A stretch of 28,316 nt of DNA, taken from a virus. The notes beneath the pieces were generated by a model. It did not search any database and was not told the origin of the DNA. It saw only the letters and a program-made list of their open reading frames with translations. Positions within the stretch are counted from its first letter, which is position 1. Each line of letters starts with the position of its first letter. Positions 3,164 through 27,590 of this stretch are shown piece after piece. Both the position numbers and the translations under genes were made by a program. The DNA lies in IMG/VR virus record IMGVR_UViG_3300028581_000190, positions 1 to 28,316 of that record; one strand, given 5' to 3'.

Positions 3164-5011
3164 ATGGCAGAACAAAATATGACAGTTTGGCAAAGATTGT
3201 CACAAACATTTGGACCTAATTCACTTCTTAATCAAGACTATCCGACATTCAAGTTTGATAAAAAGGAACTTCTGCGAACCAAAAGTAGAGAAGAATATGA
3301 AAAAGAAAAACTCCAAGCACAACAAACATATTACCTCACCAATCAATGGTCGAAGGTAGAAAACAACCTTTATTCACAGGCGATTTATTATGAACCAACA
3401 AGGTTATCTGCTCAATACGATTATGAGTCGATGGAATATACTCCTGAGATTTCTGCAGCGTTAGACATTTATGCCGAAGAATCCACCACAACAAATGAAG
3501 ATGGATTTATTCTGCAAATTTATTCTGAATCAAAAAGAATAAAAGGGGTATTAGCTGATTTGTTTAACAACGCTTTAGACATTAATACTAACCTTCCAAT
3601 GTGGACACGGAACACCTGTAAGTATGGTGATAATTTCGTGTATCTTAAATTAGACCCTGAAAAAGGAATTGTCGGTTGTCAACAATTACCAACAATTGAA
3701 ATTGAAAGACATGAGGTTGGGGCGAGTGGTAAAATATCTGTCGATGTTAAAAACGAAGTTGACAAAGACAGAAAAGCATTACACTTCACTTGGAAGAATA
3801 AAAATATGGAATTCCAATCATGGGAAATTGCTCATTTTAGATTATTAGGTGATGACAGAAAACTCCCATACGGAACATCTATGTTAGAGAAAGCCAGACG
3901 TATTTGGAAACAACTGTTACTTTCTGAAGATGCTATGTTGATTTATCGTACGTCTAGAGCACCTGAAAGAAGGATGTTCAAAGTATTCGTTGGTAATATG
4001 AATGATGATGATGTTGAAGCGTATGTACAACGTGTTGCAAACAAATTCAAAAGAGAACAAATAGTTGATAGTAAGACTGGTAACGTGGACATGAGATTTA
4101 ATCAAATGGCTGTCGATCAAGATTATTTTATACCAGTTCGTGATCCAGCGGCACCAGATCCAATCACAACTTTACCTGGTGCTACTAACTTATCCGAAAT
4201 TGCCGATATTGAATATATTCAAAAGAAATTATTAACTGCATTACGAGTACCCAAAGCATTCTTAGGATTTGAAGAAGTTGTTGGTGATGGTAAAAACTTG
4301 GCATTACAAGATATTAGATTCGCTCGTACAATTAATAGAATCCAAAAAAGTATGATAGCAGAACTTAACAAAATCGCTATTGTACATTTATTCTTATTGG
4401 GATTTGAGGATGAATTATCAAACTTTACTATTGGATTAACAAATCCATCAACCCAAGCTGATTTATTGAAGATTGATGTTTGGAAAGAAAAAGTATTATT
4501 ATACAAGGATTTGGTTTCTGATCCAGGAAATGGAATACAGGCGACTTCATCTACATGGGCTAAGAAACACATATTTGGATGGTCTGATGACGAAGTTCGT
4601 TTAGACCTACAACAACAAAGAATTGAAAGAGCTGTTGGCGAAGAACTTAAAGCAACTCCAACTGTGATAACCAAAACAGGTTTGTTTGATAATATCGACA
4701 AATTGTATGGAAGTCAAACAGGATCAACTCCAACTGCAGGAGCGGAAACAACTATGGATGGAGGAGAAGTATTAGGATCGCCGCCATCATTTGATGGTGG
4801 TGAGATTCCTGGTGGAGAACCTGAATTACCACCGGCAGGAGGAGCTGAAGAAGCTCCACCATCTGAAGTAACACCGGAATCAAGGAAAAAAGACCTCAAT
4901 ATTTTAGTGGAAAATAATTTAATCGAAGGTTCACAGGTAATAAATTTGGGTCAGGCACAAGATTCTTTGGGAGAAATTTCAAAAGAGTTAGATAAGTTAT
5001 TAAATTCATAA
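3164..5011 (+). CDS. gp20: Portal protein, T4 gp20-like
   Basis: This protein forms the dodecameric ring at the unique capsid vertex through which DNA enters and leaves; it also nucleates head assembly and docks terminase. The 615 residues carry hallmark gp20 segments: ISAALDIYAEESTTTNEDG, WTRNTCKYGDNFVYLKLDP, AHFRLLGDDRKLPYGTSMLE, LIYRTSRAPERRMFKVFVGN and the region around LPGATNLSEIADIEYIQKK. The last roughly 100 residues become a Pro/Gly/Glu-rich flexible tail ending in a short helix. This makes it longer than T4 gp20 (524 residues), an extension that may be specific to this lineage. The order terminase then portal then core proteins then protease matches T4, without the tail tube and sheath genes that T4 has in between. 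Confidence 0.96.
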   Translation: MAEQNMTVWQRLSQTFGPNSLLNQDYPTFKFDKKELLRTKSREEYEKEKLQAQQTYYLTNQWSKVENNLYSQAIYYEPTRLSAQYDYESMEYTPEISAALDIYAEESTTTNEDGFILQIYSESKRIKGVLADLFNNALDINTNLPMWTRNTCKYGDNFVYLKLDPEKGIVGCQQLPTIEIERHEVGASGKISVDVKNEVDKDRKALHFTWKNKNMEFQSWEIAHFRLLGDDRKLPYGTSMLEKARRIWKQLLLSEDAMLIYRTSRAPERRMFKVFVGNMNDDDVEAYVQRVANKFKREQIVDSKTGNVDMRFNQMAVDQDYFIPVRDPAAPDPITTLPGATNLSEIADIEYIQKKLLTALRVPKAFLGFEEVVGDGKNLALQDIRFARTINRIQKSMIAELNKIAIVHLFLLGFEDELSNFTIGLTNPSTQADLLKIDVWKEKVLLYKDLVSDPGNGIQATSSTWAKKHIFGWSDDEVRLDLQQQRIERAVGEELKATPTVITKTGLFDNIDKLYGSQTGSTPTAGAETTMDGGEVLGSPPSFDGGEIPGGEPELPPAGGAEEAPPSEVTPESRKKDLNILVENNLIEGSQVINLGQAQDSLGEISKELDKLLNS

Positions 5012-5019
5012 TATTTATT
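5012..5019 (+). promoter_or_regulatory. TATTTATT motif before the 232-residue gene (candidate late promoter)
   Basis: TATTTATT begins one base after the portal stop and ends 13 bases before the next ATG. It belongs to the same set of TATTTAT motifs found before other late genes here. Confidence 0.45.
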
Positions 5020-5032
5020 TGAAAAAGACACC

Positions 5033-5731
5033 ATGACCTTCGGAATAGTAAAATCCCTAATTGAAAAAAATCTCTTAGAATCCTACAAAAATGAATTAGA
5101 ATTCAAGAAGACTTTGCGAGAATTCAAACACAACGTTTTGAGTAATAAAGCTATGTCTAAAGCATACGCAATATATGACCAACTGAGCTCACCTCAAGGG
5201 TTAAGTGATCAGGATGCAAAATATTTTATTGAAGAAGGGATTAATTTATTAAACAAAGTTTTGTCAAGTATTAAACTTCCAATCACACTTTCCGAAAAAA
5301 CTGAAAATAATTATTCCGATATTGACACCTTAGTTTATACCCAAGGAGTAGATTTACTCGAAAGAGTTAATGCGAAGAAAAATATTTTGAAAGTTATTAT
5401 GTCTACAAAAGAATCTATTAAAGAAAATATAAATATTCCGATTAGCTCTATGGTTGCGGTTGCGAATCAAACCGTTAATAATTACATACTTAATTTGGAT
5501 GAAAATTCCAAAAAAGAATTTTTCCAAATAGTTTCTGAAGATACCAAAATTTTGGAAACAAAATTTGAAACCTTAAGAGAAAGTACGATATCCAAATTAA
5601 CCACACTTCAAGAAAATGAGGATTCACAGGATATCAAAACAAAAATTTTAGAAACGATTGACAAAATTAAATCTGAAAAATTTGACCAATTAAACTTTTT
5701 AAAGTTAAAAAATTTGGAAGAATCAATTTGA
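5033..5731 (+). CDS. Probable prohead core protein
   Basis: The 232 residues are Lys/Glu-rich, almost entirely helix-forming and free of cysteine. It sits between portal and protease, where T4 has the small prohead-core genes 67 and 68, so a role in the scaffolding core is a reasonable inference; no specific homology is recognised. The N-terminus MTFGIVKSLIEKNLLESYKN ends a helix with L-L-E before Ser16, resembling the (I/L)-x-E cleavage rule of T4-type prohead proteases. Further LRE-Ser and LQE-Asn sites occur towards the C-terminus. Its last 9 bases overlap the convergent bS21 gene. Confidence 0.85.
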   Translation: MTFGIVKSLIEKNLLESYKNELEFKKTLREFKHNVLSNKAMSKAYAIYDQLSSPQGLSDQDAKYFIEEGINLLNKVLSSIKLPITLSEKTENNYSDIDTLVYTQGVDLLERVNAKKNILKVIMSTKESIKENINIPISSMVAVANQTVNNYILNLDENSKKEFFQIVSEDTKILETKFETLRESTISKLTTLQENEDSQDIKTKILETIDKIKSEKFDQLNFLKLKNLEESI

Positions 5732-5914
5732 TTGGTCTTTGAGTCCTTGAATATATTTTGCCTTCAGAATCTGTGATCTTCTAAGTACAGATTTTTTTGT
5801 ATAGTGCTTTCTATCAAATAGAATTTGATTTTGTTTTGTTTTAATTACTTTTGACTTTAGGGTCTTGAGAGCCTTCTCAAGAGGATTACCCTGTGTTATT
5901 TTTATTATTATCAT
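5723..5914 (-). CDS. rpsU: Phage-encoded ribosomal protein bS21
   Basis: The 63-residue basic protein aligns by eye with bacterial bS21. It opens MIIIKITQGNPLEKALKTLK (short beta strand, then the helix with ALK-x-LK), continues with a KT-containing turn, then FDRKHYTKKSVLRR (the R-x-x-Y-x-K-x-S-x-x-RR signature), and ends KAKYIQGLKDQSN. Length matches the short Bacteroidota bS21 rather than the 71-residue E. coli protein. bS21 sits on the 30S platform next to the 3' end of 16S rRNA. In Flavobacterium ribosomes it helps hide the anti-Shine-Dalgarno sequence, so a phage copy could alter start selection on host or phage mRNA (inference). It is the only minus-strand gene inside the head cluster and has its own host-like promoter, suggesting earlier expression than its neighbours. 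Confidence 0.85.
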   Translation of the reverse strand: MIIIKITQGNPLEKALKTLKSKVIKTKQNQILFDRKHYTKKSVLRRSQILKAKYIQGLKDQSN

Positions 5915-5930
5915 ATATTAGAAATATCTA

Positions 5931-5938
5931 CAAATATA
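5931..5938 (-). promoter_or_regulatory. Host-type -7 element TATATTTG upstream of bS21
   Basis: Read on the minus strand, TATATTTG lies 16 bases before the bS21 ATG. It matches the Bacteroidota housekeeping -7 consensus TAnnTTTG. A TTG occurs about 13 bases further upstream, closer than the usual -33 spacing, so the upstream element is not convincing. Recognition by the host sigma factor is inferred. Confidence 0.45.
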
Positions 5939-5960
5939 AAAAAATTTTGACAATCATACA

Positions 5961-6000
5961 TATTATGTATATAATTTCATTAATAAACATACATAATATC
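5961..6000. repeat. 11-base perfect inverted repeat between divergent genes
   Basis: ATATTATGTAT (5961-5971) and ATACATAATAT (5990-6000) are perfect reverse complements separated by 18 bases. They lie in the gap between the bS21 promoter and the start at 6008. They could form an operator or an RNA hairpin at the 5' end of the next gene. The local sequence is very AT-rich, which raises the chance of coincidence. Confidence 0.4.
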
Positions 6001-6007
6001 ATTATTA

Positions 6008-6445
6008 ATGAAAAAAGGAAAAAGTGTCAAACTTAACCTGTTCAATCCCATAAAGTCACAGTATGGGACAGTAGATTCCAAAAACTTAAAATCAGTTTAC
6101 ATAAATATTCAATCATGGGTTACACCAAAAGAAGAGTTAGATAATTGGAACCGAGTTGTCTCAGGTTTGGGACGAGAAATAAAAAATTCCGTTTTTGAAT
6201 CAATAAATTGTAAAATATTTCAAGAAAAAAATATTGTTGATTTAGACCTTCGGACAAGTGGGATATCAAAAGGGAAAAAATCATTTTTCAATTTGGAAAT
6301 CAATCTATATACCCTACGTGATATGGATTTCAAATGCGATGAAATAAAAGAATCTATAAAAACTATAGTTAAATCCATCTACAAAAATAACGTAGTTCAA
6401 AACAAATACTTTGAATTTTCAATTTCAAAAAAAGACGAAAACTGA
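6008..6445 (+). CDS. Unknown 145-residue protein between portal and protease genes
   Basis: This protein is not recognised. It is basic and soluble, with alternating strands (SVYINIQSWV, VDLDLRTSGI, SFFNLEINLY) and a C-terminal helix IKESIKTIVKSIYKN, suggesting a compact alpha/beta domain. The strand pattern and the phrase LEINLYTLR could suit a small virion or regulatory protein, but this is not evidence of function. It starts with ATG directly after an inverted repeat, lacks the TATTTAT motif of its neighbours and is divergent to bS21. It may therefore be expressed on a different schedule from the head genes. Confidence 0.85.
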   Translation: MKKGKSVKLNLFNPIKSQYGTVDSKNLKSVYINIQSWVTPKEELDNWNRVVSGLGREIKNSVFESINCKIFQEKNIVDLDLRTSGISKGKKSFFNLEINLYTLRDMDFKCDEIKESIKTIVKSIYKNNVVQNKYFEFSISKKDEN

Positions 6446-6484: not shown

Positions 6485-7201
6485 ATGAAAAATTTAAGAA
6501 TTTTAGAAGCAAGCGAGCTTGGTCATGGTATATTGATTGAAATGGACGCAGGTTGGGTTTCTCCGAAAGATACTCAAAATATTGACGTTTTGAAAGAAGC
6601 AGCCAATTTAGATTATAGAAATCCATTTGAATTTTATGCAGTTCTTCAAAAATACGACACACCAAATAGAAATGGTAGAACGTATCCTGAAAGGATTTTG
6701 AAAAGAGAATCTGAAAGATATAAGCAAGCAATTTCTAAGGGTTTATCCACATCAGAATTAAACCACCCTGAGTCGTCATTAATTGACTTAGACAGAGTAT
6801 CTCACATCATCACAGACATATGGTGGGATAAAAATATACTAATGGGAAAACTCAAATTATTGACATCTCCAGGGTTTCATGAAAGAGGCATAGTTTCAAC
6901 TAAAGGAGACCAAGCAGCAAACTTAATGAGACAAGGAGTAACATTAGGTATTTCATCAAGAGGTGTTGGTTCACTTAAGAAGGTTGGCGAAAGAAATGAA
7001 GTACAAGATGATTTTGAACTGATATGTTTTGACTTGGTATCTTCTCCATCAACACCAGGTGCTTATTTATTTTCTAACCCTGACGAAAGAAGTAAGTATG
7101 AAGAAAATTTAGAGGAAGAAATAAAATCTAAACAAAATAACGACTATGTTGAAAAGTCGGTTGACTTAATGAGAAAATTAGACGATTTTTTAGGAAAATA
7201 A
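6485..7201 (+). CDS. gp21: Prohead core protease, T4 gp21-like
   Basis: This serine protease (T4 gp21/peptidase U9 type) matures the prohead by cutting scaffold, core and capsid proteins. The 238 residues contain the conserved NRNGRTYPERIL block (62-73), the probable catalytic histidine in STSELNHPESS (His94), and the probable catalytic serine in TLGISSRGVGSL (Ser157 or Ser158). The block FDLVSSPSTPGAYLF follows. T4 gp21 is similar in size (212 residues). The N-terminus reads MKNLRILEASELG, so I-L-E before Ala9 could be its own activation cleavage site. It is followed after 4 bases by the 69-residue gene, making a two-gene unit ended by the terminator at 7439. Confidence 0.95.
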   Translation: MKNLRILEASELGHGILIEMDAGWVSPKDTQNIDVLKEAANLDYRNPFEFYAVLQKYDTPNRNGRTYPERILKRESERYKQAISKGLSTSELNHPESSLIDLDRVSHIITDIWWDKNILMGKLKLLTSPGFHERGIVSTKGDQAANLMRQGVTLGISSRGVGSLKKVGERNEVQDDFELICFDLVSSPSTPGAYLFSNPDERSKYEENLEEEIKSKQNNDYVEKSVDLMRKLDDFLGK

Positions 7202-11034: not shown

Positions 11035-11715
11035 ATGAAAAAATATATTCCATCACAAGAAGAAATAGAAATTATTCTTAAAATGTATAATGAGGATTTA
11101 GTTGGGAGTCAAACAATCTCAGAAAAAATAGGATTAAATAAACAACAAGTATTAAGAATACTTAAAGAAAATGGTGTTATTTTAGGCCCTTCAGGTAGAC
11201 GTTTTATTGGTGGTAAAAAAGTTGCAGATAAAAAATATAGACAAAATAATAAAGAATATATGTCTAATAAATCAAAAAATTGGTATGAACAAAACAAAGA
11301 ATATCGTAAAGAATATCTTAAAGAATACCGAGAAAAAAATATAGAAAGTATTAGAAAAACCAAACGTGATTACGAAAGAAATCGTAAGGCGAGTGACCCC
11401 CTCTATAAACTAATATCTAATTTCAGAACTGCGATTTATCAGGTGTTAAAAGAAAGTAATGTTGAGAAAAACAAACACTACTTTGATATATTACAATATA
11501 CTCCTGAATCATTGATTAAACATTTGGAATCTCAATTCGAGAATAATATGAATTGGGATAACTATGGTGATTGGCATGTTGACCATAAATTACCAATTAC
11601 ATCCTTCAACATACAAGAAATGGGAGACGAGGAGTTTATGAGATGTTGGTCTTTAGAAAATCTTCAACCAATGTGGGGAACGGATAACATTCGTAAATCT
11701 AATAAGGTTTTATGA
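11035..11715 (+). CDS. Free-standing HNH homing endonuclease
   Basis: The 226 residues start with a helix-turn-helix-like segment (SQTISEKIGLNKQQVLRILK, about 25-44), continue with a very basic Tyr/Lys/Glu-rich helical linker (about 65-118) probably used for DNA contact, and end in an HNH nuclease: GDWHVDHKLPITSF with His181 and His184, CWSLENLQPMW with Asn209, and NIRKSNK. This layout is typical of phage mobile HNH enzymes. It sits after the capsid terminator with its own motif, a common landing place for such elements in T4-like genomes. The neighbouring target site cannot be seen from one genome. Confidence 0.9.
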   Translation: MKKYIPSQEEIEIILKMYNEDLVGSQTISEKIGLNKQQVLRILKENGVILGPSGRRFIGGKKVADKKYRQNNKEYMSNKSKNWYEQNKEYRKEYLKEYREKNIESIRKTKRDYERNRKASDPLYKLISNFRTAIYQVLKESNVEKNKHYFDILQYTPESLIKHLESQFENNMNWDNYGDWHVDHKLPITSFNIQEMGDEEFMRCWSLENLQPMWGTDNIRKSNKVL

Positions 11716-11717
11716 AG

Positions 11718-11725
11718 TATTTATA
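11718..11725 (+). promoter_or_regulatory. TATTTATA motif before the 404-residue gene (candidate late promoter)
   Basis: GTATTTATA follows the HNH stop by two bases and ends 14 bases before the next ATG. It lets the 404-residue gene be transcribed independently of the HNH gene. Confidence 0.5.
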
Positions 11726-11739
11726 ATAAATTAAGAATT

Positions 11740-12954
11740 ATGATTAAGCAAACTTGGGAAATATCACAGGAAGAACGGAATAGAATTATTTCACTTCACG
11801 AATCCGCAACAAAGAATTTTTATATATTATCAGAACAAAATAATAACAAAACCAAAAATGATTCAATTAGTTTGACCAAACGGGTTGAATTCCCAAGTGG
11901 AATCCATAGTTCATCCGCAGTAAATCTTAATAACCTGATAGATTTAACGGAAATCGAAGATTTCTTGAAAAAATATCCAAATAATGAAATTATCATTAAA
12001 TTAAAATCTAGTGAATCACAAGTTCCAAATTACGATAGAGAAGTTACTCCAAAGAAAAAACTGAATCCGGGTGACCTCAGTAAAATGAGGTATGAAACTA
12101 TTCAAACTTTTATTACAAACTGGATGAATGGACTTGTGTCTAAAGGAATCATATCTCAACTACCTGAATTTGTAACTACTCAACCTATTGTTGACACTAC
12201 AACACCTTGGAACCCTAGTCCAGGATTAACTTCATCTCAAATTTCTGCACTAGCCAAAGACCCAAAATATACTAAACATCAATTTGTTGAAATAACGGTA
12301 GAAGTGGTTGGAAAACAAACACCTGAAGACACACCGGGTGGTAAAACCATAACTTTCGACGATGAGCAAGTGGTAACTTCGAGAACACCTTCCGCATCCA
12401 AAAATCAGTATAATACTGCATTATTTTACAATTATAGTTACGCACCTGGAGCAGTTCTTGGGATGAGTCAATCTGAAGCAGAATCTTTACCAGGGGCTTT
12501 ATTAACTATGAATAGGGAATTTGATGTTCAGACTTCGATTAAAAAATTGAATCTTTCACCTTTTAAGGTTAAGATAATTCCAAATGGAGGACAAACTGTT
12601 CCGGTAATAATTTTGAAACAAATGAATGGTAATGAAGTACCCACTTCTCCAAAAAATTGGGCGCCATGGAACTCATATGTTACTGACTCATACACACTTG
12701 AAATCCCATTTCCAAATGATAGTAAAGAATTTCAATCTGCATGGCTATTCATTTATTGGTATATTAAAAAAGGATTTCCGTCAGATTGGAATTTTATATC
12801 AAACAAACCTAAAAATATCGATTGGAGTCTAGTTGATAGAGGATTACAGAGTGGTGGGAAACAAATACAAAATTCAAGTATTGAAACTCAAAAAAAAATA
12901 TGGAGTTTATACCCAATGGATTGGTATGTTAAGATAGTGGAAAAAGTTTATTGA
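11740..12954 (+). CDS. Unknown late protein with a capsid-targeting-like N-terminus and possible OmpA-like domain
   Basis: The 404-residue protein opens with a charged helical peptide, MIKQTWEISQEERNRIISLH then Glu21, followed by SATKNFYIL. L-H-E before Ser fits the T4-type prohead-protease rule. Residues about 45-190 are loosely reminiscent of an OmpA-C peptidoglycan-binding fold: an opening FPSGIHSSS segment, NEIIIKLKSSE as central strand, LNPGDLSKMRYETIQTFI as the helix with S-x-x-R, and KHQFVEITVEVVG as final strand. The typical TD and NxxLSxxRA residues are only partly kept, so this is tentative. The C-terminal half is Trp-rich and unrecognised. There is no signal peptide. Packaging into the head is inference. 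Confidence 0.85.
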   Translation: MIKQTWEISQEERNRIISLHESATKNFYILSEQNNNKTKNDSISLTKRVEFPSGIHSSSAVNLNNLIDLTEIEDFLKKYPNNEIIIKLKSSESQVPNYDREVTPKKKLNPGDLSKMRYETIQTFITNWMNGLVSKGIISQLPEFVTTQPIVDTTTPWNPSPGLTSSQISALAKDPKYTKHQFVEITVEVVGKQTPEDTPGGKTITFDDEQVVTSRTPSASKNQYNTALFYNYSYAPGAVLGMSQSEAESLPGALLTMNREFDVQTSIKKLNLSPFKVKIIPNGGQTVPVIILKQMNGNEVPTSPKNWAPWNSYVTDSYTLEIPFPNDSKEFQSAWLFIYWYIKKGFPSDWNFISNKPKNIDWSLVDRGLQSGGKQIQNSSIETQKKIWSLYPMDWYVKIVEKVY

Positions 12955-12970
12955 GGGATAACAAATAATT

Positions 12971-13438
12971 TTAATCCATAGCAATGAAACAAAAGTAACT
13001 GAAAGTTTTATCTTCGTTGTAAGATAGGTAGAACCTTTTTATTTTATCATTGAGTAATAGTTCGTTGTGTACCATAGAATTTTTCCATTGTAAAAAACAA
13101 AACATTGCTATATTATAATTTGTTGAGTGGTAAGGATTTTGATTGTTTGGAAGGTTTCTTGAAATTCCAATATTTTCTCCCGCGAATCTAAACGAAAGTT
13201 TTTGGGGGTTTATATTCTCGGAAAATCCGTTATGACTATAATCCCGAACCAAATTTTTACTACGATAGTCTGTTAATTCCTTTATCGATTCGTCAATGAC
13301 TACTGGATTTAATCCATTTGAATATCTATACTCATTTAAGATTTGTTCAAAATGAACAATGATGGGGGTATCATTATTAGTTGGGGTCTTAAAACCAAAT
13401 AATAAAAATGAACATAGAAAAAAAACTAGTTTTTTCAT
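12971..13438 (-). CDS. Secreted CAP-domain (SCP/PR-1-like) protein
   Basis: The 155 residues begin with a Sec signal peptide (MKKLVFFLCSFLLFGFKT) and no clear lipobox. The mature part fits the CAP fold: LNEYRYSNGLNPVVIDESIK (the NExR-x3-GLxP signature), SHNGF with His69, AGENIG with Glu88, and FLQWKNSMVHNELLL with Trp118 and His124. These are the usual cavity His/Glu/His positions. CAP proteins are extracellular or periplasmic, with varied lipid-binding, protease-like or wall-associated roles. A secreted CAP protein in a T4-like phage is unusual, and its role here is unknown. It overlaps the upstream 75-residue gene by 4 bases, so the two are co-translated. Confidence 0.85.
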   Translation of the reverse strand: MKKLVFFLCSFLLFGFKTPTNNDTPIIVHFEQILNEYRYSNGLNPVVIDESIKELTDYRSKNLVRDYSHNGFSENINPQKLSFRFAGENIGISRNLPNNQNPYHSTNYNIAMFCFLQWKNSMVHNELLLNDKIKRFYLSYNEDKTFSYFCFIAMD

Positions 13439-21628: not shown

Positions 21629-22375
21629 TTAGTTTTTGATTCTTGATTGAATTACTATATATAATTTTTTGAATCTTTTGATTGAACTACGTATTTCTTT
21701 AGTACTTAAGTTGGTCATTTCTCTGAGTGATAATAATATTACATTCTTATTGAATTTATTATTGTCCGCTCCCGAAAAAATTGTTTCATAATTATCAAAC
21801 AAATCAATTAGAGCATATCCTAATTTTTTTTCGTTATTATTTAGGGGTTCTGTCTCAATATATTCTTTTAACTCATATAAATATTTGTTAATAATATAAT
21901 CGGTTTCAACAACATCATCGTCGATTCTATAAGTCAAATCAGGCCTTTCCTCGAGACTTGATGAAATATCTTCGTATGATATTTTTCTATTAGTCTCTTT
22001 TTGGTCTTTAATAATCTGACCCATCAGATAGTTTTTACAAATAGTTCCAAAATAAGAATAAGCTTTTTTATTTTTATCTGGCTTAAACTTATCGACTTTC
22101 GTCATAAGAAAGGAATGTGTGTCTGTATGAATTTCCTCAAAATCCATATCTTTACGATATAACTTATATCGTCGAATAATTGAGGAAATCATTTTATCTA
22201 AAGGATGTCTTAAAAACTGATTATAGATTTTATTTTTTTCGTAAGATGATTCGGCAATTAGAAATTTTCTAACCGCCTCCTCTTCTCTTACATCAAAATA
22301 ATTTTCTTTAACTGCCTTTCTACCTCTTTTTTTCGATAAAATATCCTCTGTTGTGGCAGAGAGTGAATCTTGCAT
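21629..22375 (-). CDS. gp55: Late-transcription sigma factor, T4 gp55-like
   Basis: The 248 residues match the reduced sigma-70 family member used for T4 late transcription. A region-2-like core spans about 57-127: HPLDKMISSIIRRYKLYRKD, DFEEIHTDTHSFLMTKVDKF, KPDKNKKAYSYFGTICKNYL and MGQIIKDQKE. In T4 gp55 the equivalent block ends with F-x-P-x-K-x-x-x-F-A-Y-x-T and a basic helix. A basic tail near the start (KKRGRK) and a C-terminal helix-turn-helix-like segment (LREMTNLSTKEIRSSIKRFK) complete it; T4 gp55 is shorter (185 residues). It presumably redirects host RNA polymerase to late promoters, for which the TATTTAT sites here are candidates. Start and upstream stop share the A of TAATG. Confidence 0.85.
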   Translation of the reverse strand: MQDSLSATTEDILSKKRGRKAVKENYFDVREEEAVRKFLIAESSYEKNKIYNQFLRHPLDKMISSIIRRYKLYRKDMDFEEIHTDTHSFLMTKVDKFKPDKNKKAYSYFGTICKNYLMGQIIKDQKETNRKISYEDISSSLEERPDLTYRIDDDVVETDYIINKYLYELKEYIETEPLNNNEKKLGYALIDLFDNYETIFSGADNNKFNKNVILLSLREMTNLSTKEIRSSIKRFKKLYIVIQSRIKN

Positions 22376-23181
22376 TAAGCATTTTCGGATTGATATTTTA
22401 TGGATCTATCGTCCGTGAAAAAATATTCTCTTTTTGCGGTTTGAATCCAAAACTTTACTTCATCTTCAACCATTTTACTGTCTCCAAATTTATAGTTCCA
22501 AAAAATAGATCCTTCTCTAAGGTTTACGTGTTTGTAACCAAGTCTTGGAATTGTCATTACTGAAACAGAGTTATATGTTAATCGTAATAAAAACTCATAA
22601 ATAAAAGTCAGTTTTATTGATGGTTTGAATCCTCCAAAATCTTCAATAACAGATTTTTTAATTACAGAACCTGCGGTTTGGAAATTTTGATATTCTTGTA
22701 AAGTATCGTTGGTCAAAATACCCATTTCTTGTGAGAAATTTGCCGCGAATGTCGCTTCATTTGTAAACCCTGCGAATAATCCCTTTTCGTCTGTTTCAAC
22801 CACAACAGGTAAAAACATTTGTACTTCAGGAAACGACTCAACATATTTTTTTACATTTTTGAACCATATTGATGAATATTCATCATCAAATTCAAAAAGA
22901 GAGACCCAAGTTCCTTTTGCATTTTTTATTCCAAAATTGACTTGGTTTGCGTAATTTGGTTCTTGGTCCCACAATAATTTTGTAACATTCAAATTACCAA
23001 AATCATATGAGTCTAATATGTCAATGAGAGATTGCTCTTGTGAGTGAACAATTACTAATTCTTCAAATCCAACTTGTTGATTTTTAAGAGATGAAATTGC
23101 CTTTTCAAAATACTCATCAAAATCTTTTGCTTTAGCCGATTTTATAGGTAGTATTACTGATAATGATAGTGTATTATTCAT
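22375..23181 (-). CDS. Glycosyltransferase, GT-A fold (family 2-like)
   Basis: The 268 residues begin with the family-2 strand LSLSVILPIKSAKAKDF and AISSLKNQ, then EELVIVHSQE. The nucleotide-sugar/metal site is probably FEFDDEYS (Asp99-Asp100), preceded by NFGIKNAKGTWVSL, the usual N-x-G-x-x-x-A-x-G segment. A later GSVIKKSVIEDFGGF corresponds to the acceptor-side block. It should transfer a sugar from a nucleotide donor, inverting. Donor and acceptor cannot be told. It lies one base after the GT-B gene, in a five-gene sugar-related block. Confidence 0.85.
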   Translation of the reverse strand: MNNTLSLSVILPIKSAKAKDFDEYFEKAISSLKNQQVGFEELVIVHSQEQSLIDILDSYDFGNLNVTKLLWDQEPNYANQVNFGIKNAKGTWVSLFEFDDEYSSIWFKNVKKYVESFPEVQMFLPVVVETDEKGLFAGFTNEATFAANFSQEMGILTNDTLQEYQNFQTAGSVIKKSVIEDFGGFKPSIKLTFIYEFLLRLTYNSVSVMTIPRLGYKHVNLREGSIFWNYKFGDSKMVEDEVKFWIQTAKREYFFTDDRSIKYQSENA

Positions 23182-23182
23182 A

Positions 23183-24235
23183 TTATTCTTCTGTTTTGGA
23201 AATTTGATTTTCGAATGAATCTGCTCTTGTAGTCAAATATCCTTCAAATAAAGAAACTACTGTCGATTCAAACTTTTGTTTATCCGTATATCTTTCGACG
23301 GTCTCTTTCATTTTTTCAAAAATTTGTGGGTCGATGTTATCTTCCAACCAATCTTGTGCATAATCCGCAACCAAATCAGGTAATAAAGTTTGGTCCGTAA
23401 CCCAAATACCATTTTCTTCACTCATCCAATCAGGTGACAGGTTTGGAACTTTTCCAATCACAGGAACATTTGATTTCATAGATTCAAGTGGGAACGTACC
23501 AAAACCACTGTGGTCATCAATCCAAACACTCAAAAAACAATCCCTTAAAGAGTTCGCAAATTCTTTTTCAGATAAACCTCTTAAGTCTCTAAACGTAAAC
23601 CATCTATATTGTGGAAATTTCAAATAAAAGGTCTTAATCAAATTAATCGCATCACTCTGTTCTTTTGAATGGACTCCAATAATGGGCATTGCCGGAGTAG
23701 ATTTAGGTGTAAATTCTTCACTGATTAATGGGTCAATGATGTCGAAAGAAATTTGTCTCATGACTCTTTCAATATACTCTTTTTGTTTACTTGATGTTGT
23801 AATACATTTTAAAAATCCAAATTGATTCCAAGTTTGGCCTGGTTGTAAAGTTTCTAACATGTGTGCGTACTGTTGTGTTAAAACAATTTTAGCACAAGGA
23901 AGCTGTTTTACTTGGTCCATTACGTATCCAAAAATTTCAGGGATGACTAAAAAGTCCTCTGGTGAAATTTCTAAATTTTGTCCTTCGATTGCACGGTGAG
24001 GAATTGACATATACTCTTCATCTAACCATGCAACAACACCTGCATAATCAGCTTTTTCATGAAGTATAATTGGATTGAATCCATTATCTTTTAATGTTTT
24101 TGCCATTTGATATATAAGTCTTACTGAAGCCTTCGCATTACCTTTAGTGTCTTGAACTAAAAAATATATTCTGGCTTGCTTGTCTCTTAATATATTAATG
24201 GACTGTTTTACTTTTTCTTGAAGTTGGTTTTCCAT
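23183..24235 (-). CDS. Glycosyltransferase, GT-B fold (family 4-like)
   Basis: The 350 residues show two Rossmann-like halves. The N-terminal half has RIYFLVQDTKGNAKASVRLI (a donor-free opening strand with a Gly-rich turn) and VVAWLDEEY. The C-terminal half carries the nucleotide-sugar motif HSGFGTFPLESMKSNVPVIG (about 242-261), where the Glu of PLES corresponds to the second Glu of the E-x7-E motif and the first is replaced by Ser/His. The rest (DWMSEENGIWVTDQ) is typical of the last helices. A retaining glycosyltransferase is likely. It is co-operonic with the GT-A enzyme; the two starts and stops lie within 1-2 bases of each other. Confidence 0.85.
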   Translation of the reverse strand: MENQLQEKVKQSINILRDKQARIYFLVQDTKGNAKASVRLIYQMAKTLKDNGFNPIILHEKADYAGVVAWLDEEYMSIPHRAIEGQNLEISPEDFLVIPEIFGYVMDQVKQLPCAKIVLTQQYAHMLETLQPGQTWNQFGFLKCITTSSKQKEYIERVMRQISFDIIDPLISEEFTPKSTPAMPIIGVHSKEQSDAINLIKTFYLKFPQYRWFTFRDLRGLSEKEFANSLRDCFLSVWIDDHSGFGTFPLESMKSNVPVIGKVPNLSPDWMSEENGIWVTDQTLLPDLVADYAQDWLEDNIDPQIFEKMKETVERYTDKQKFESTVVSLFEGYLTTRADSFENQISKTEE

Positions 24236-24236
24236 A

Positions 24237-24521
24237 TTAATAATGATTGATAAGTTTTTTATTTAATAAACTATTGAACGCTAACCTAAAAGGGATACTA
24301 ACTTGTGCGTTAGATTTCATTCCAAGTTTTTCATCAACAATTTCTTGTTCATTCAAAACAGTGTCTAATAACATTTTAAGCATTTCGAATTTGATAATAT
24401 TAATTTTTGTTTCTGTTACTCCTGACTCTGAATCTTCACTGTCGTCAGTTTGACTCATATCAAGATAGTTTTCAATTTCATCTAAGTCGATAAAATAATT
24501 CTCACCTAATACTTGTATCAT
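24237..24521 (-). CDS. Unknown 94-residue protein in the sugar block
   Basis: The protein is not recognised. It opens with a strand (MIQVLGENYFIDLDEIENYL), has an acidic Ser/Asp linker (SQTDDSEDSESG) and ends with a helical part IIKFEMLKMLLDTVLNEQEI followed by SIPFRLAFNSLLNKKLINHY. It overlaps the HAD-like gene by 4 bases and ends one base before the glycosyltransferase start. The first half looks like a small regulatory or adaptor module. A role in the same process is inferred only from packing. Confidence 0.8.
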   Translation of the reverse strand: MIQVLGENYFIDLDEIENYLDMSQTDDSEDSESGVTETKINIIKFEMLKMLLDTVLNEQEIVDEKLGMKSNAQVSIPFRLAFNSLLNKKLINHY

Positions 24522-25117
24522 GTTATTTCTTGTATTTTTGTTTTTAATTCCTTAAGACTTGAAATATGAAATTCAGATTCAACATCATTATTATAAGTTG
24601 TGTTAAATTTAATTACAATTTTGTTTTTTGGATGATTCAATAATAGTTTAGGATTTGCCGTAAGTAAAATGTCTACAGAATCCCATAGTGAATTAATTGT
24701 GCTTTCGCTATAAAATCTAACGGATTCAACTAAACACCCAAATTTTGAAATAAAGAATAATGATGCGGGTTTTGATTTTCCAATTTCATCTGAAACAATA
24801 ATAATATCATGAGAATCTCTCATATCTAAGTAAAATTCATTCAAGTCCAAAAGACCTGAAGGCTCTACAGACCCCGCATGTCCAAAAATTTCCATGGTAT
24901 GCTCTTTATAAAGAAAATCATATAATTCATCTTCATTTCTGAATTTTAAATGTTTTGAAATATCTAAAGACGTTAAATCAGATAAAACTTCATATTGAAA
25001 GTTATCATCTTCATTTTCGTCTATGAACGGATTATTAAGAAACCATTTCTCATACTCTTGTTGTATTTTTTTTAGAGTGTCCCTCAATACTCCATTCAAT
25101 TCAATACCTATTTTCAT
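24518..25117 (-). CDS. HAD-superfamily-like protein with degenerate catalytic residues
   Basis: The 199 residues open MKIGIELNGVLRDTLKK, aligning with HAD motif I (hhhDxDGVLxD) but with Glu and Asn in place of the nucleophile Asp and general-acid Asp. Motif II is present as DIIIVSDEIG, and the Lys of motif III as SKPASLFFISKFG. The usual D-D pair of motif IV is missing from VDILLTANPK. An enzyme of the 5'-nucleotidase/phosphatase group is therefore likely to be inactive or repurposed. It overlaps PhoH by 4 bases upstream and the 94-residue gene by 4 bases downstream, so it is expressed with the sugar genes. Confidence 0.75.
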   Translation of the reverse strand: MKIGIELNGVLRDTLKKIQQEYEKWFLNNPFIDENEDDNFQYEVLSDLTSLDISKHLKFRNEDELYDFLYKEHTMEIFGHAGSVEPSGLLDLNEFYLDMRDSHDIIIVSDEIGKSKPASLFFISKFGCLVESVRFYSESTINSLWDSVDILLTANPKLLLNHPKNKIVIKFNTTYNNDVESEFHISSLKELKTKIQEIT

Positions 25118-25848
25118 TCTTCGTATTTTTCTAATATTTTAGATATTAATGGATTTCTAACAATATCTGTAGACTTGAATTCAAAAACACCAATATCATT
25201 CATATTTTGAAATTTTTTAAGAGCATCCCAAAGACCTGTTTGTGTTTTGTCTTTGTGTCTATCAAATTGTTCTAAATCTCCTGATATAAAAAATTTTGAG
25301 TTAAATCCTATTCTAGTTAATAACAATTTCATTTGACTTGGAGTTGAATTTTGGGCTTCCTCAAAAATTAAAATTGAGTTATCAATATTCATACCTCTCA
25401 TATAAGCTAACGCGAATACTTCTATAGCCTCGATTTCCTTTAATTTTTCCCTTGTATCTTTACCAATTATTTTGTTTAATAGGTAGTACGAAGGAAAAAT
25501 ATATGGGTCTAGTTTTTCTTCCACTCCACCAGGTAAACTACCTAGTTTTTCTTCGGCTTCCACTGCCGGTCTCACGATTATAATTTTTTCATAAGGAGTG
25601 TTAGGGTCAGATAATAAATCGACCGCACATTTCATTGCGATATAACTTTTTCCAACACCTGCAGGACCTGAACAAATACTAATTTGGTTGTTAGTCAATT
25701 TTTCGTAGTATTCTTTTTGACTTTCAGATAAAAATTTTTCTTTCGTTTTTCTCTTAATTATTGAACAGATTTGTTGTTTTTTATTTTTAATTGGGGTTTC
25801 TTCACTTGGTAAAGTTGCCGTTGGTTTTGGTTTTGTTGGTCTACCCAT
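25114..25848 (-). CDS. phoH: PhoH-like ATPase
   Basis: The 244 residues carry Walker A SGPAGVGKSYIAMKCA (about 60-75), the PhoH-specific VRPAVEAEEKLGSLPGGVEE (92-111), Walker B SILIFEEAQNSTPSQMK (158-174) and a final FISGDLEQFDRHK. PhoH proteins are P-loop NTPases often fused to RNase domains in bacteria; phages carry a short form and it is widespread in marine phage genomes. The biochemical role in phages is not settled: RNA handling or stress response under phosphate limitation have been proposed. Its position among sugar genes may simply reflect operon packing. The N-terminus is basic and Pro/Lys-rich. Confidence 0.93.
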   Translation of the reverse strand: MGRPTKPKPTATLPSEETPIKNKKQQICSIIKRKTKEKFLSESQKEYYEKLTNNQISICSGPAGVGKSYIAMKCAVDLLSDPNTPYEKIIIVRPAVEAEEKLGSLPGGVEEKLDPYIFPSYYLLNKIIGKDTREKLKEIEAIEVFALAYMRGMNIDNSILIFEEAQNSTPSQMKLLLTRIGFNSKFFISGDLEQFDRHKDKTQTGLWDALKKFQNMNDIGVFEFKSTDIVRNPLISKILEKYEE

Positions 25849-25854
25849 CCTAAA

Positions 25855-26949
25855 TTATTTAACTTTATGTTTTTTCAAACTCTGTGACTCTCGTTTATAT
25901 ACAGTATTACCTCCGTCAGGACTTTCATATATCCACACTGTTTCAAGTTGTTTTTTGTCAACTTGAGATTTTATCCATTGATATGTTTTCTTCAATCCAA
26001 CAGACAATGGCTGACTCACTTCCCACCCAATTTTTTCTCGATATAATTTGTTATCAGAATTTCTACCTTTAACTCCCAATGGGCACTTGAATCCATACTT
26101 TTTAACAAATTCTTCACCTTCAATATTTTTAATAGTTATATATTTTTCAGCGATTTCTATTGCCATTTTAGCTAACTGATTGATTGTAATCATTTCTTCA
26201 CTACCAATATTTACAGGACCTTCGAAATCAGATTCCATTAATTTAAGAACCGCTTCAACACATTCATCAACATACAAGAAAGAACGAGTTTGTAAACCAT
26301 TACCCCAAACTTCGATTTCCCCACCATTTTCAGTTTCAACAGCTTTTCGACACATAGCTGCAGGTGATTTTTCTCTACCCCCATTCCATGTACCTTGTGG
26401 TCCAAATATGTTGTGGAATCTGGCGATTCTGACATTTAATCCATAATTTCTACTGAAGGCTAAATAAAGTCTTTCAGAGAACAATTTTTCCCATCCATAC
26501 TCAGAATCAGGATTAGCGGGATAAGCCGAGGATTCTTCACAATTTGGATTGTCAGGGTCCATCTGATTGTGTTCGGGATACATACATGCTGAAGATGAGT
26601 AAAATAGTTTACCAACTTTTTTCTTAACCGCTTCACGAGCGACATTAAGATTAATGGTCGCTGAGTTGTACATTACATCTGCGTCGTGTTCCCCGGTAAA
26701 GATATATAACGCTCCTCCCATATCTGCCGCGAGTTGATAAACTTCATCAATACCCTCTTCGATTACTAATTCTACAACTTTGGGGTCAGTTAAATCTCCT
26801 AAAATAAATTCATGACAAAACTCGTCTTGAAAGAAGTATTCATGTTTTTTAATGTCGCATATTCTGACGTGATTTCCTTCTTCTTTTAACCTTTTGGCGA
26901 GGTGCCCACCTATGAACCCTCCTCCACCTAATACTACTATTTTTTTCAT
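25855..26949 (-). CDS. GDP-mannose 3,5-epimerase (plant GME-like)
   Basis: The 364 residues form an extended SDR epimerase. GGGGFIGG (8-15) binds NAD. QLAADMGGA, SSSACMYPE (Cys122), EYGWEKL (Tyr151, Lys155), ARFHNIFGPQGTWNGGREKS (Lys194), NGLQTRSFLYVDECVEAV, PVNIGSEEMITINQLA and VKGRNSDNKLYREKIGW match plant GDP-mannose 3,5-epimerase block by block. In the Arabidopsis enzyme the catalytic set is Cys145, Tyr174, Lys178 and Lys217; all four here are offset by exactly 23, as expected for a protein missing a plant N-terminal extension. The reaction converts GDP-D-mannose to GDP-L-galactose (and GDP-L-gulose). It lies between PhoH and an FkbM methyltransferase. Confidence 0.9.
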   Translation of the reverse strand: MKKIVVLGGGGFIGGHLAKRLKEEGNHVRICDIKKHEYFFQDEFCHEFILGDLTDPKVVELVIEEGIDEVYQLAADMGGALYIFTGEHDADVMYNSATINLNVAREAVKKKVGKLFYSSSACMYPEHNQMDPDNPNCEESSAYPANPDSEYGWEKLFSERLYLAFSRNYGLNVRIARFHNIFGPQGTWNGGREKSPAAMCRKAVETENGGEIEVWGNGLQTRSFLYVDECVEAVLKLMESDFEGPVNIGSEEMITINQLAKMAIEIAEKYITIKNIEGEEFVKKYGFKCPLGVKGRNSDNKLYREKIGWEVSQPLSVGLKKTYQWIKSQVDKKQLETVWIYESPDGGNTVYKRESQSLKKHKVK

Positions 26950-26954
26950 ATTAT

Positions 26955-27590
26955 TTATCTATTTTTCGATTCTTCAGCAATTTCATATTCGACTCCAAGA
27001 GATTCAAATATTTTACCACATGGAGTTTTATCGAATTTACATTTCGATAATTTTTCTTCATCAAAAAATGATGGATTAACCCACCAATCTTCAAAGTATA
27101 ATTCAGGATGATTGTCGTGAGATACGTCAGAACAAATTAATTTATAACCTTTTGATTCTAATAATTCTCTTTGAGGGATTTTTTCCTTTTGAACAAATTC
27201 ATCTCCCAAATAAGCATCGTGCTCGATTGTAATTATTTTGAATGTATAATCACTTGAAATTATCTTTTGTAAAAGTTTGAAACGGTCTCCACAACCTTCC
27301 ATATCCAACGTTAGATAATCTATTGTTTTGTCTGTATAATAGTCTTTTAATAAATCATTATAGTCAACATTCAAACAGTCTGATTGAATAAATTTACATT
27401 GTCTTTCTTTCCATTGTTGATTAAAATCTTGAATATCTATTGATATACCATCCCAACCATTTAATTCTAAAAGGTATGTGTTATTTATTTTTTTCGGTAA
27501 GGAACATCCGAGATCTAAAAATTTACCAGATTTTCCTTCTGTTAGGTAGTGAACAAATAAATCTTGTCCGCATTGTGAGTACGATTTCAT
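26955..27590 (-). CDS. FkbM-family methyltransferase
   Basis: The 211 residues begin MKSYSQCGQDLFVHYL, the S-Q-x-x-Q-D-x-F opening seen in FkbM-type methyltransferases, followed by GKFLDLGCS (SAM motif I, about 22-30) and WDGISIDI (motif II, 46-53). TIDYLTLDMEG (89-99) is the conserved FkbM block. Such enzymes O-methylate sugars and natural products; the acceptor here is unknown. It overlaps the upstream epimerase by 4 bases, and the GDP-mannose 3,5-epimerase follows 5 bases after its stop, so a methylated sugar product is a plausible joint output. Confidence 0.88.
   Translation of the reverse strand: MKSYSQCGQDLFVHYLTEGKSGKFLDLGCSLPKKINNTYLLELNGWDGISIDIQDFNQQWKERQCKFIQSDCLNVDYNDLLKDYYTDKTIDYLTLDMEGCGDRFKLLQKIISSDYTFKIITIEHDAYLGDEFVQKEKIPQRELLESKGYKLICSDVSHDNHPELYFEDWWVNPSFFDEEKLSKCKFDKTPCGKIFESLGVEYEIAEESKNR

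Follow-up and report, generated by a model that had tools for sequence, protein, structure and literature searches.

The window analyzed here is a 28-kb virus fragment (28,316 nt) in which a short minus-strand gene for a homologue of ribosomal protein bS21 lies among plus-strand head genes. The genes and features at the locus are as follows.

3164–5011, plus strand: T4-type portal (PF07230, E 4e-75)
5033–5731, plus strand: convergent neighbor, 232 aa, its end overlapping that of bS21; TATTTAT at 5012
5723–5914, minus strand: phage bS21 gene, 63 aa, ATG start, Tyr54 kept
5922–5928, minus strand: GATATTT, conserved word, ending 7 nt upstream of the bS21 start
5931–5938, minus strand (read 5938–5931): TATATTTG, the −7 word proposed in the initial annotation; not conserved
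5947–5972, plus strand: TTGAC-N18-TAT, bipartite promoter-like element directed toward the divergent neighbor, in 62/62 distinct leaders
6008–6445, plus strand: divergent neighbor, 145 aa, beginning MKKGKSV; bS21 adjoins in 79/80 loci
6485–7201, plus strand: prohead protease (PF03420, E 4e-22), with a conserved TATTTAT in front (6465)

Searches of Pfam and PHROGs placed T4-type terminase, portal, prohead protease, and capsid genes around bS21, which, as the initial annotation had stated, is the only minus-strand gene accepted before 12.97 kb. The same annotation called the gene embedded antisense; this overstates the arrangement, which is a 9-nt tail-to-tail overlap with the 5033–5731 open reading frame (ORF). 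No terminator was found at the overlap (5723–5731), and plus-strand transcripts may run on antisense over bS21. Elsewhere in the window, 22375–27590 (minus strand) and 11035–13438 hold surface sugar genes (glycosyltransferase family 2, nucleotide-sugar epimerase, and an FkbM-type methyltransferase-like gene); 11035–11715 resembles endonuclease VII, and 12971–13438 has a marginal CAP-domain match.

The Pfam Ribosomal_S21 profile (PF01165) matched the 63-aa protein at 33.5 bits, above the curated cut-off of 27 (E 3e-8), and among solved structures the nearest match is Flavobacterium johnsoniae bS21 (7jil), which aligns without gaps; the bS21 signature first read from the 63 residues is thus borne out. 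Identity to a Flavobacterium copy (L119) is 47% over 60 aa. In the ungapped alignments to 7jil and L119, the window protein keeps Tyr54, a trait of Bacteroidia-type bS21 and the residue stacking against the 3′ tail of 16S rRNA. PHROGs gave a weak match to its own S21 family, and the NCBIfam equivalog TIGR00030 scored 27.4 bits against a cut-off of 28.95, a miss by 1.5 bits; hence, we term the protein a bS21 homologue, its equivalence being unproven. We conclude, on the sequence, that the window gene is a phage-encoded bS21 of the Bacteroidia type.

Two scans for relatives gave more than 500 matches each, and we kept the best 80 per scan (the best-80 sets). Across the 141 phage copies in these sets, residue 54 is Tyr in 103 and His in 38, the latter in relatives L004 to L056; it is Tyr in 80/80 hosts. 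Changes fixed in the phage copies lie in the first half of the protein (Y19L, R21S, F23V, D24I, G27K, T28Q, and R30Q). In a tree of 115 sequences containing host and phage copies, the phage copies are split from the hosts by a branch of length 1.35 with 98/97 support; inner forks are weak because the alignment has only 64 columns. When bacterial genomes were searched for the phage bS21, no close relative turned up. From homology, we infer a freshwater, Bacteroidota-type host. One relative (G001) is 326 kb long with 33.7% GC, and its genes were called with a simple ATG-ORF rule.

The layout of the locus is constant. Both neighbors are identical in kind in 134 of the 141 bS21 loci (best 80 of more than 500 from each of the two scans), and of 139 contexts in the best-80 sets, 108 show a stop overlap of 9 nt with the convergent ORF and 27 an overlap of 4 nt. 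In a reverse search from the divergent gene, the single locus of 80 in which bS21 did not adjoin was truncated by a contig end. The divergent neighbor has no family match in Pfam or PHROGs; its structure model (pLDDT 71, middling) has a single uncharacterized viral match and no significant fold relative in the PDB. The bS21 gene of a 735-kb phage (L200:5990–6201) has AAAGGAGGATAA in front and a gene context other than head genes, and L199 and L201 differ again from that arrangement.

Phages of this kind have been described. According to Chen et al. 2022 (PMC9723584), bS21 phages of freshwater Bacteroidetes (predicted hosts; clades a to e) carry a reverse-strand bS21 gene among the terminase, portal, protease, and capsid genes, flanked on either side by a constant hypothetical family. 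The window shares with them, by the published description, the reversed gene in the head block and the two constant neighbors, as well as an aromatic residue 54 and phage copies that form their own group; G001 falls within their size and GC range. The 6008–6445 gene likely corresponds to their bS21_CN. The finding is therefore already known in kind, and the initial statement that bS21 occurs in some marine phages understates a literature that already covers freshwater Bacteroidetes phages arranged in exactly this way. The bS21 of Pelagibacter phage HTVC008M, which reportedly enters Escherichia coli ribosomes (Mizuno et al. 2019, PMC6375957, as cited in PMC9723584), is likewise phage encoded but belongs to a phage of another host phylum; we set it beside the window protein by description only.

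The constant site among head genes and the tie to 6008–6445 (79/80) would suit a bS21 that acts outside the ribosome, for example, as virion cargo or a head-assembly factor, and Chen et al. raised virion delivery as possible (PMC9723584). However, the phage protein keeps Tyr54 and the rRNA-facing C-terminal half and lacks similarity to head proteins, and we consider such a role very unlikely.

The initial annotation assigned bS21 a host-type promoter on the strength of TATATTTG, read as a Bacteroidota −7 element. The word is present in the window, but it is not conserved across relatives: TAnnTTTG occurs in 13/62 distinct phage bS21 leaders from the best-80 sets, versus 80/80 distinct host rpsU leaders, and relatives have TATATTTA, TATACTTG, TATACTTA, AAAACAAC, TTAGTTATA, or AAAACAACA at this position. 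The word with TTG 18 to 22 nt upstream was found in none of the 62 phage leaders and in 21/80 host rpsU leaders; since the full pair is found in so few hosts, the absent −33 element is weaker evidence than the absent −7 element. A host-type promoter (TTG/TAnnTTTG) for bS21 is thus rejected on comparison with relatives (13/62 and 0/62). A candidate −35 box for bS21, GTCAAAATTTT, was also rejected, being the reverse of the invariant TTGAC of the divergent neighbor; in L290, the bS21 leader lacks the spacer, yet TTGAC-N18-TAT is retained. Promoter words taken from a single genome can mislead where relatives exist. A search of the open literature found no papers on promoters of Flavobacterium phages.

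These results bear on the proposal that bS21 is an early takeover gene transcribed by host polymerase from TATATTTG. The word itself, together with the absence of an exact TATTTAT at bS21 and its retention before the protease gene in 31/31 distinct relatives, is consistent with this proposal, but the −7 word is unconserved and never accompanied by a −33 TTG, and in RNA from Lake Rotsee, bS21 RNA is high together with capsid RNA (PMC9723584). Early expression by host polymerase, as first claimed, therefore finds little favor here and is in our judgment improbable; the metatranscriptome is a snapshot, so bS21 may nonetheless be expressed early.

What is conserved at the locus is a back-to-back control region, in the 93-nt gap between the two divergent genes, with a neighbor side and a bS21 side. 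On the neighbor side, TTGAY-N18-TAT is found in 62/62 distinct leaders in the best-80 sets, with 34 distinct spacers of mean identity 0.49, and TTGAC-N18-TAT is found in 80/80 leaders of the divergent-neighbor gene; the window version is a perfect TTGACA-N17-TATAAT (5947–5975). Fixed spacing with free spacer sequence gives the look of a two-part promoter, and we assign the element to the divergent neighbor. As a phage-wide promoter class, TTGAC-N18-TAT is weak (8 sense and 6 antisense occurrences in intergenic regions, versus 1.5 in shuffles), and AATTTTGAC-N16-20-TAT is nearly confined to the bS21 locus. Also in the leader of 6008–6445, ATAAAC (5983–5988) is nearly invariant among the relatives aligned. 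Rfam gave no match.

On the bS21 side, GATATTT is present in 49/58 distinct 60-nt leaders, and ATATTT ends 6 to 8 nt before the bS21 ATG in 55/62 distinct leaders (both from the best-80 sets). This word is probably a −10-type element of bS21, or the start of its leader. Two relatives (L290 and L296) have a full TATTTAT at this position, so we take GATATTT to be a weaker variant of the phage TATTTAT motif; the reading is tentative because the score in the window is unremarkable. Motif scores in the window's bS21 leader are 5.9 bits for ATATTTCTAA and 7.4 bits for ATATTTGTAG, where the 90th percentile of shuffled sequence is 6.2, and an exact TATTTAT lies within about 40 nt of the bS21 start in 8/58 relatives of the best-80 sets.

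That TATTTAT is a motif of this phage, as first suggested, held up in the 326-kb relative, where it precedes 75 of 181 intergenic-led genes versus 9.1 expected. Mostly preceded by A or G and lacking a −35 partner, it is the main promoter-like word in the window and in L102 to L118; a smaller gene set of the relative has TATCTTTG, which resembles host promoters. The ORF at 21629–22375 (minus strand, 248 aa) may encode a late sigma factor for the motif; of its 416 confirmed matches, the best 80 share 79 to 96% identity with it. Its profile has T4 gp55 as the best PDB match (E 0.095, not significant alone), and the structure predicted for it, at low confidence, is similar to sigma region 2 (4lup; probability 0.97, 3.2 Å over 99 columns, E 0.64, not significant alone).

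We calculated the pairing of leaders with the 16S tail, which we take to be of the F. johnsoniae type and which may differ from that of the phage's host. For the 32 window genes, the median was −2.2 and the best −5.6 kcal/mol, in agreement with the earlier observation that starts in this genome lack Shine-Dalgarno sequences. Across all gene leaders of the 326-kb relative, the median was −1.9 kcal/mol, versus −1.8 for shuffled leaders. Phage genes being as Shine-Dalgarno-poor as shuffled leaders, hiding the tail should cost the phage little. In the 326-kb relative, two genes, L112:5094–5795 and L114:15492–15791 (both minus strand), depart from the general lack of Shine-Dalgarno sequences and carry very strong ones (−19.2 and −15.5 kcal/mol, respectively); bS21-free ribosomes would favor these genes.

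In F. johnsoniae, bS21 synthesis is under feedback control through an extended Shine-Dalgarno sequence, which subunits without bS21 read best, and ribosomes with Y54A bS21 or bS21 without its C terminus have higher rpsU translation (PMC9976891). Host rpsU leaders (GAGAGGAGGTGTC) had the extended Shine-Dalgarno sequence in 80/80 Flavobacteriia, with a median duplex energy of −21.1 kcal/mol (range, −23.2 to −18.4). We looked for this mark of rpsU autoregulation in the phage bS21 leaders and found none: the median was −1.5 and the strongest −8.8 kcal/mol, and none was below −7 in the second relative set. The phage gene and host rpsU of the Flavobacteriales (McNutt et al. 2023, PMC9976891) thus encode homologous proteins with Tyr54 in common, whereas, of two features found in 80/80 host genomes, TAnnTTTG is not conserved at the phage gene and the extended Shine-Dalgarno sequence is absent from it. 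Searches of the open literature found no paper noting this difference for phage bS21, and the accessible part of PMC9723584 mentions neither the Shine-Dalgarno absence nor the back-to-back control region, nor does the word “promoter” occur there. What is new here, as judged from leader comparisons, is a phage bS21 gene without the host feedback switch and a proposed host-style promoter that is not conserved.

We favor, with a probability of roughly 0.55, the reading that phage bS21 replaces the host protein in the 30S subunit, hides the anti-Shine-Dalgarno tail, escapes feedback, and holds host rpsU down. Phage bS21 would take the place of the host copy in host 30S subunits, and Tyr54 and the conserved C-terminal half would keep the tail folded away. 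Because the phage gene lacks a Shine-Dalgarno sequence, its synthesis should not drop as subunits fill, and subunits filled with phage bS21 would hold host rpsU translation at a low level. In this way, the phage copy could win the exchange, with selection of phage mRNAs not needed. The initial suggestion that a phage bS21 could replace the host copy is supported as an idea and has been published for such phages (PMC9723584). The TIGR00030 miss, the long branch (1.35), and the fixed first-half changes mean that 30S incorporation is not guaranteed. The loss of the Shine-Dalgarno sequence could simply mirror its general lack in the phage, and host bS21 that is already part of a ribosome would not necessarily be exchanged.

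Chen et al. 2022 proposed instead a specialized ribosome, in which the altered N-terminal half of phage bS21 favors phage mRNAs late in replication. The fixed residues (19, 21, 23, 24, 27, 28, and 30) belong to the half that lies above the path of the mRNA and overlap the published set, and bS21 is highly co-expressed with capsid genes (PMC9723584); however, we found no feature of the mRNAs on which such a preference could act, phage and published host leaders alike lacking Shine-Dalgarno sequences, and we regard this explanation as doubtful.

If replacement of the host protein by phage bS21 does take place, the host's feedback may be turned against it, an extension that we put forward tentatively: rising phage bS21 would close host rpsU, making replacement one-way, and the back-to-back promoters would be shared with a partner found only with bS21. 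McNutt et al. proposed a different emphasis, with host feedback as a counter-defense if a phage removes host bS21 (PMC9976891). bS21 is reported to be the most common ribosomal protein in phages (PMC9976891); what phages gain from it is unsettled. The Shine-Dalgarno difference described here offers a simple laboratory test, for which F. johnsoniae rpsU reporters and bS21 depletion strains exist.
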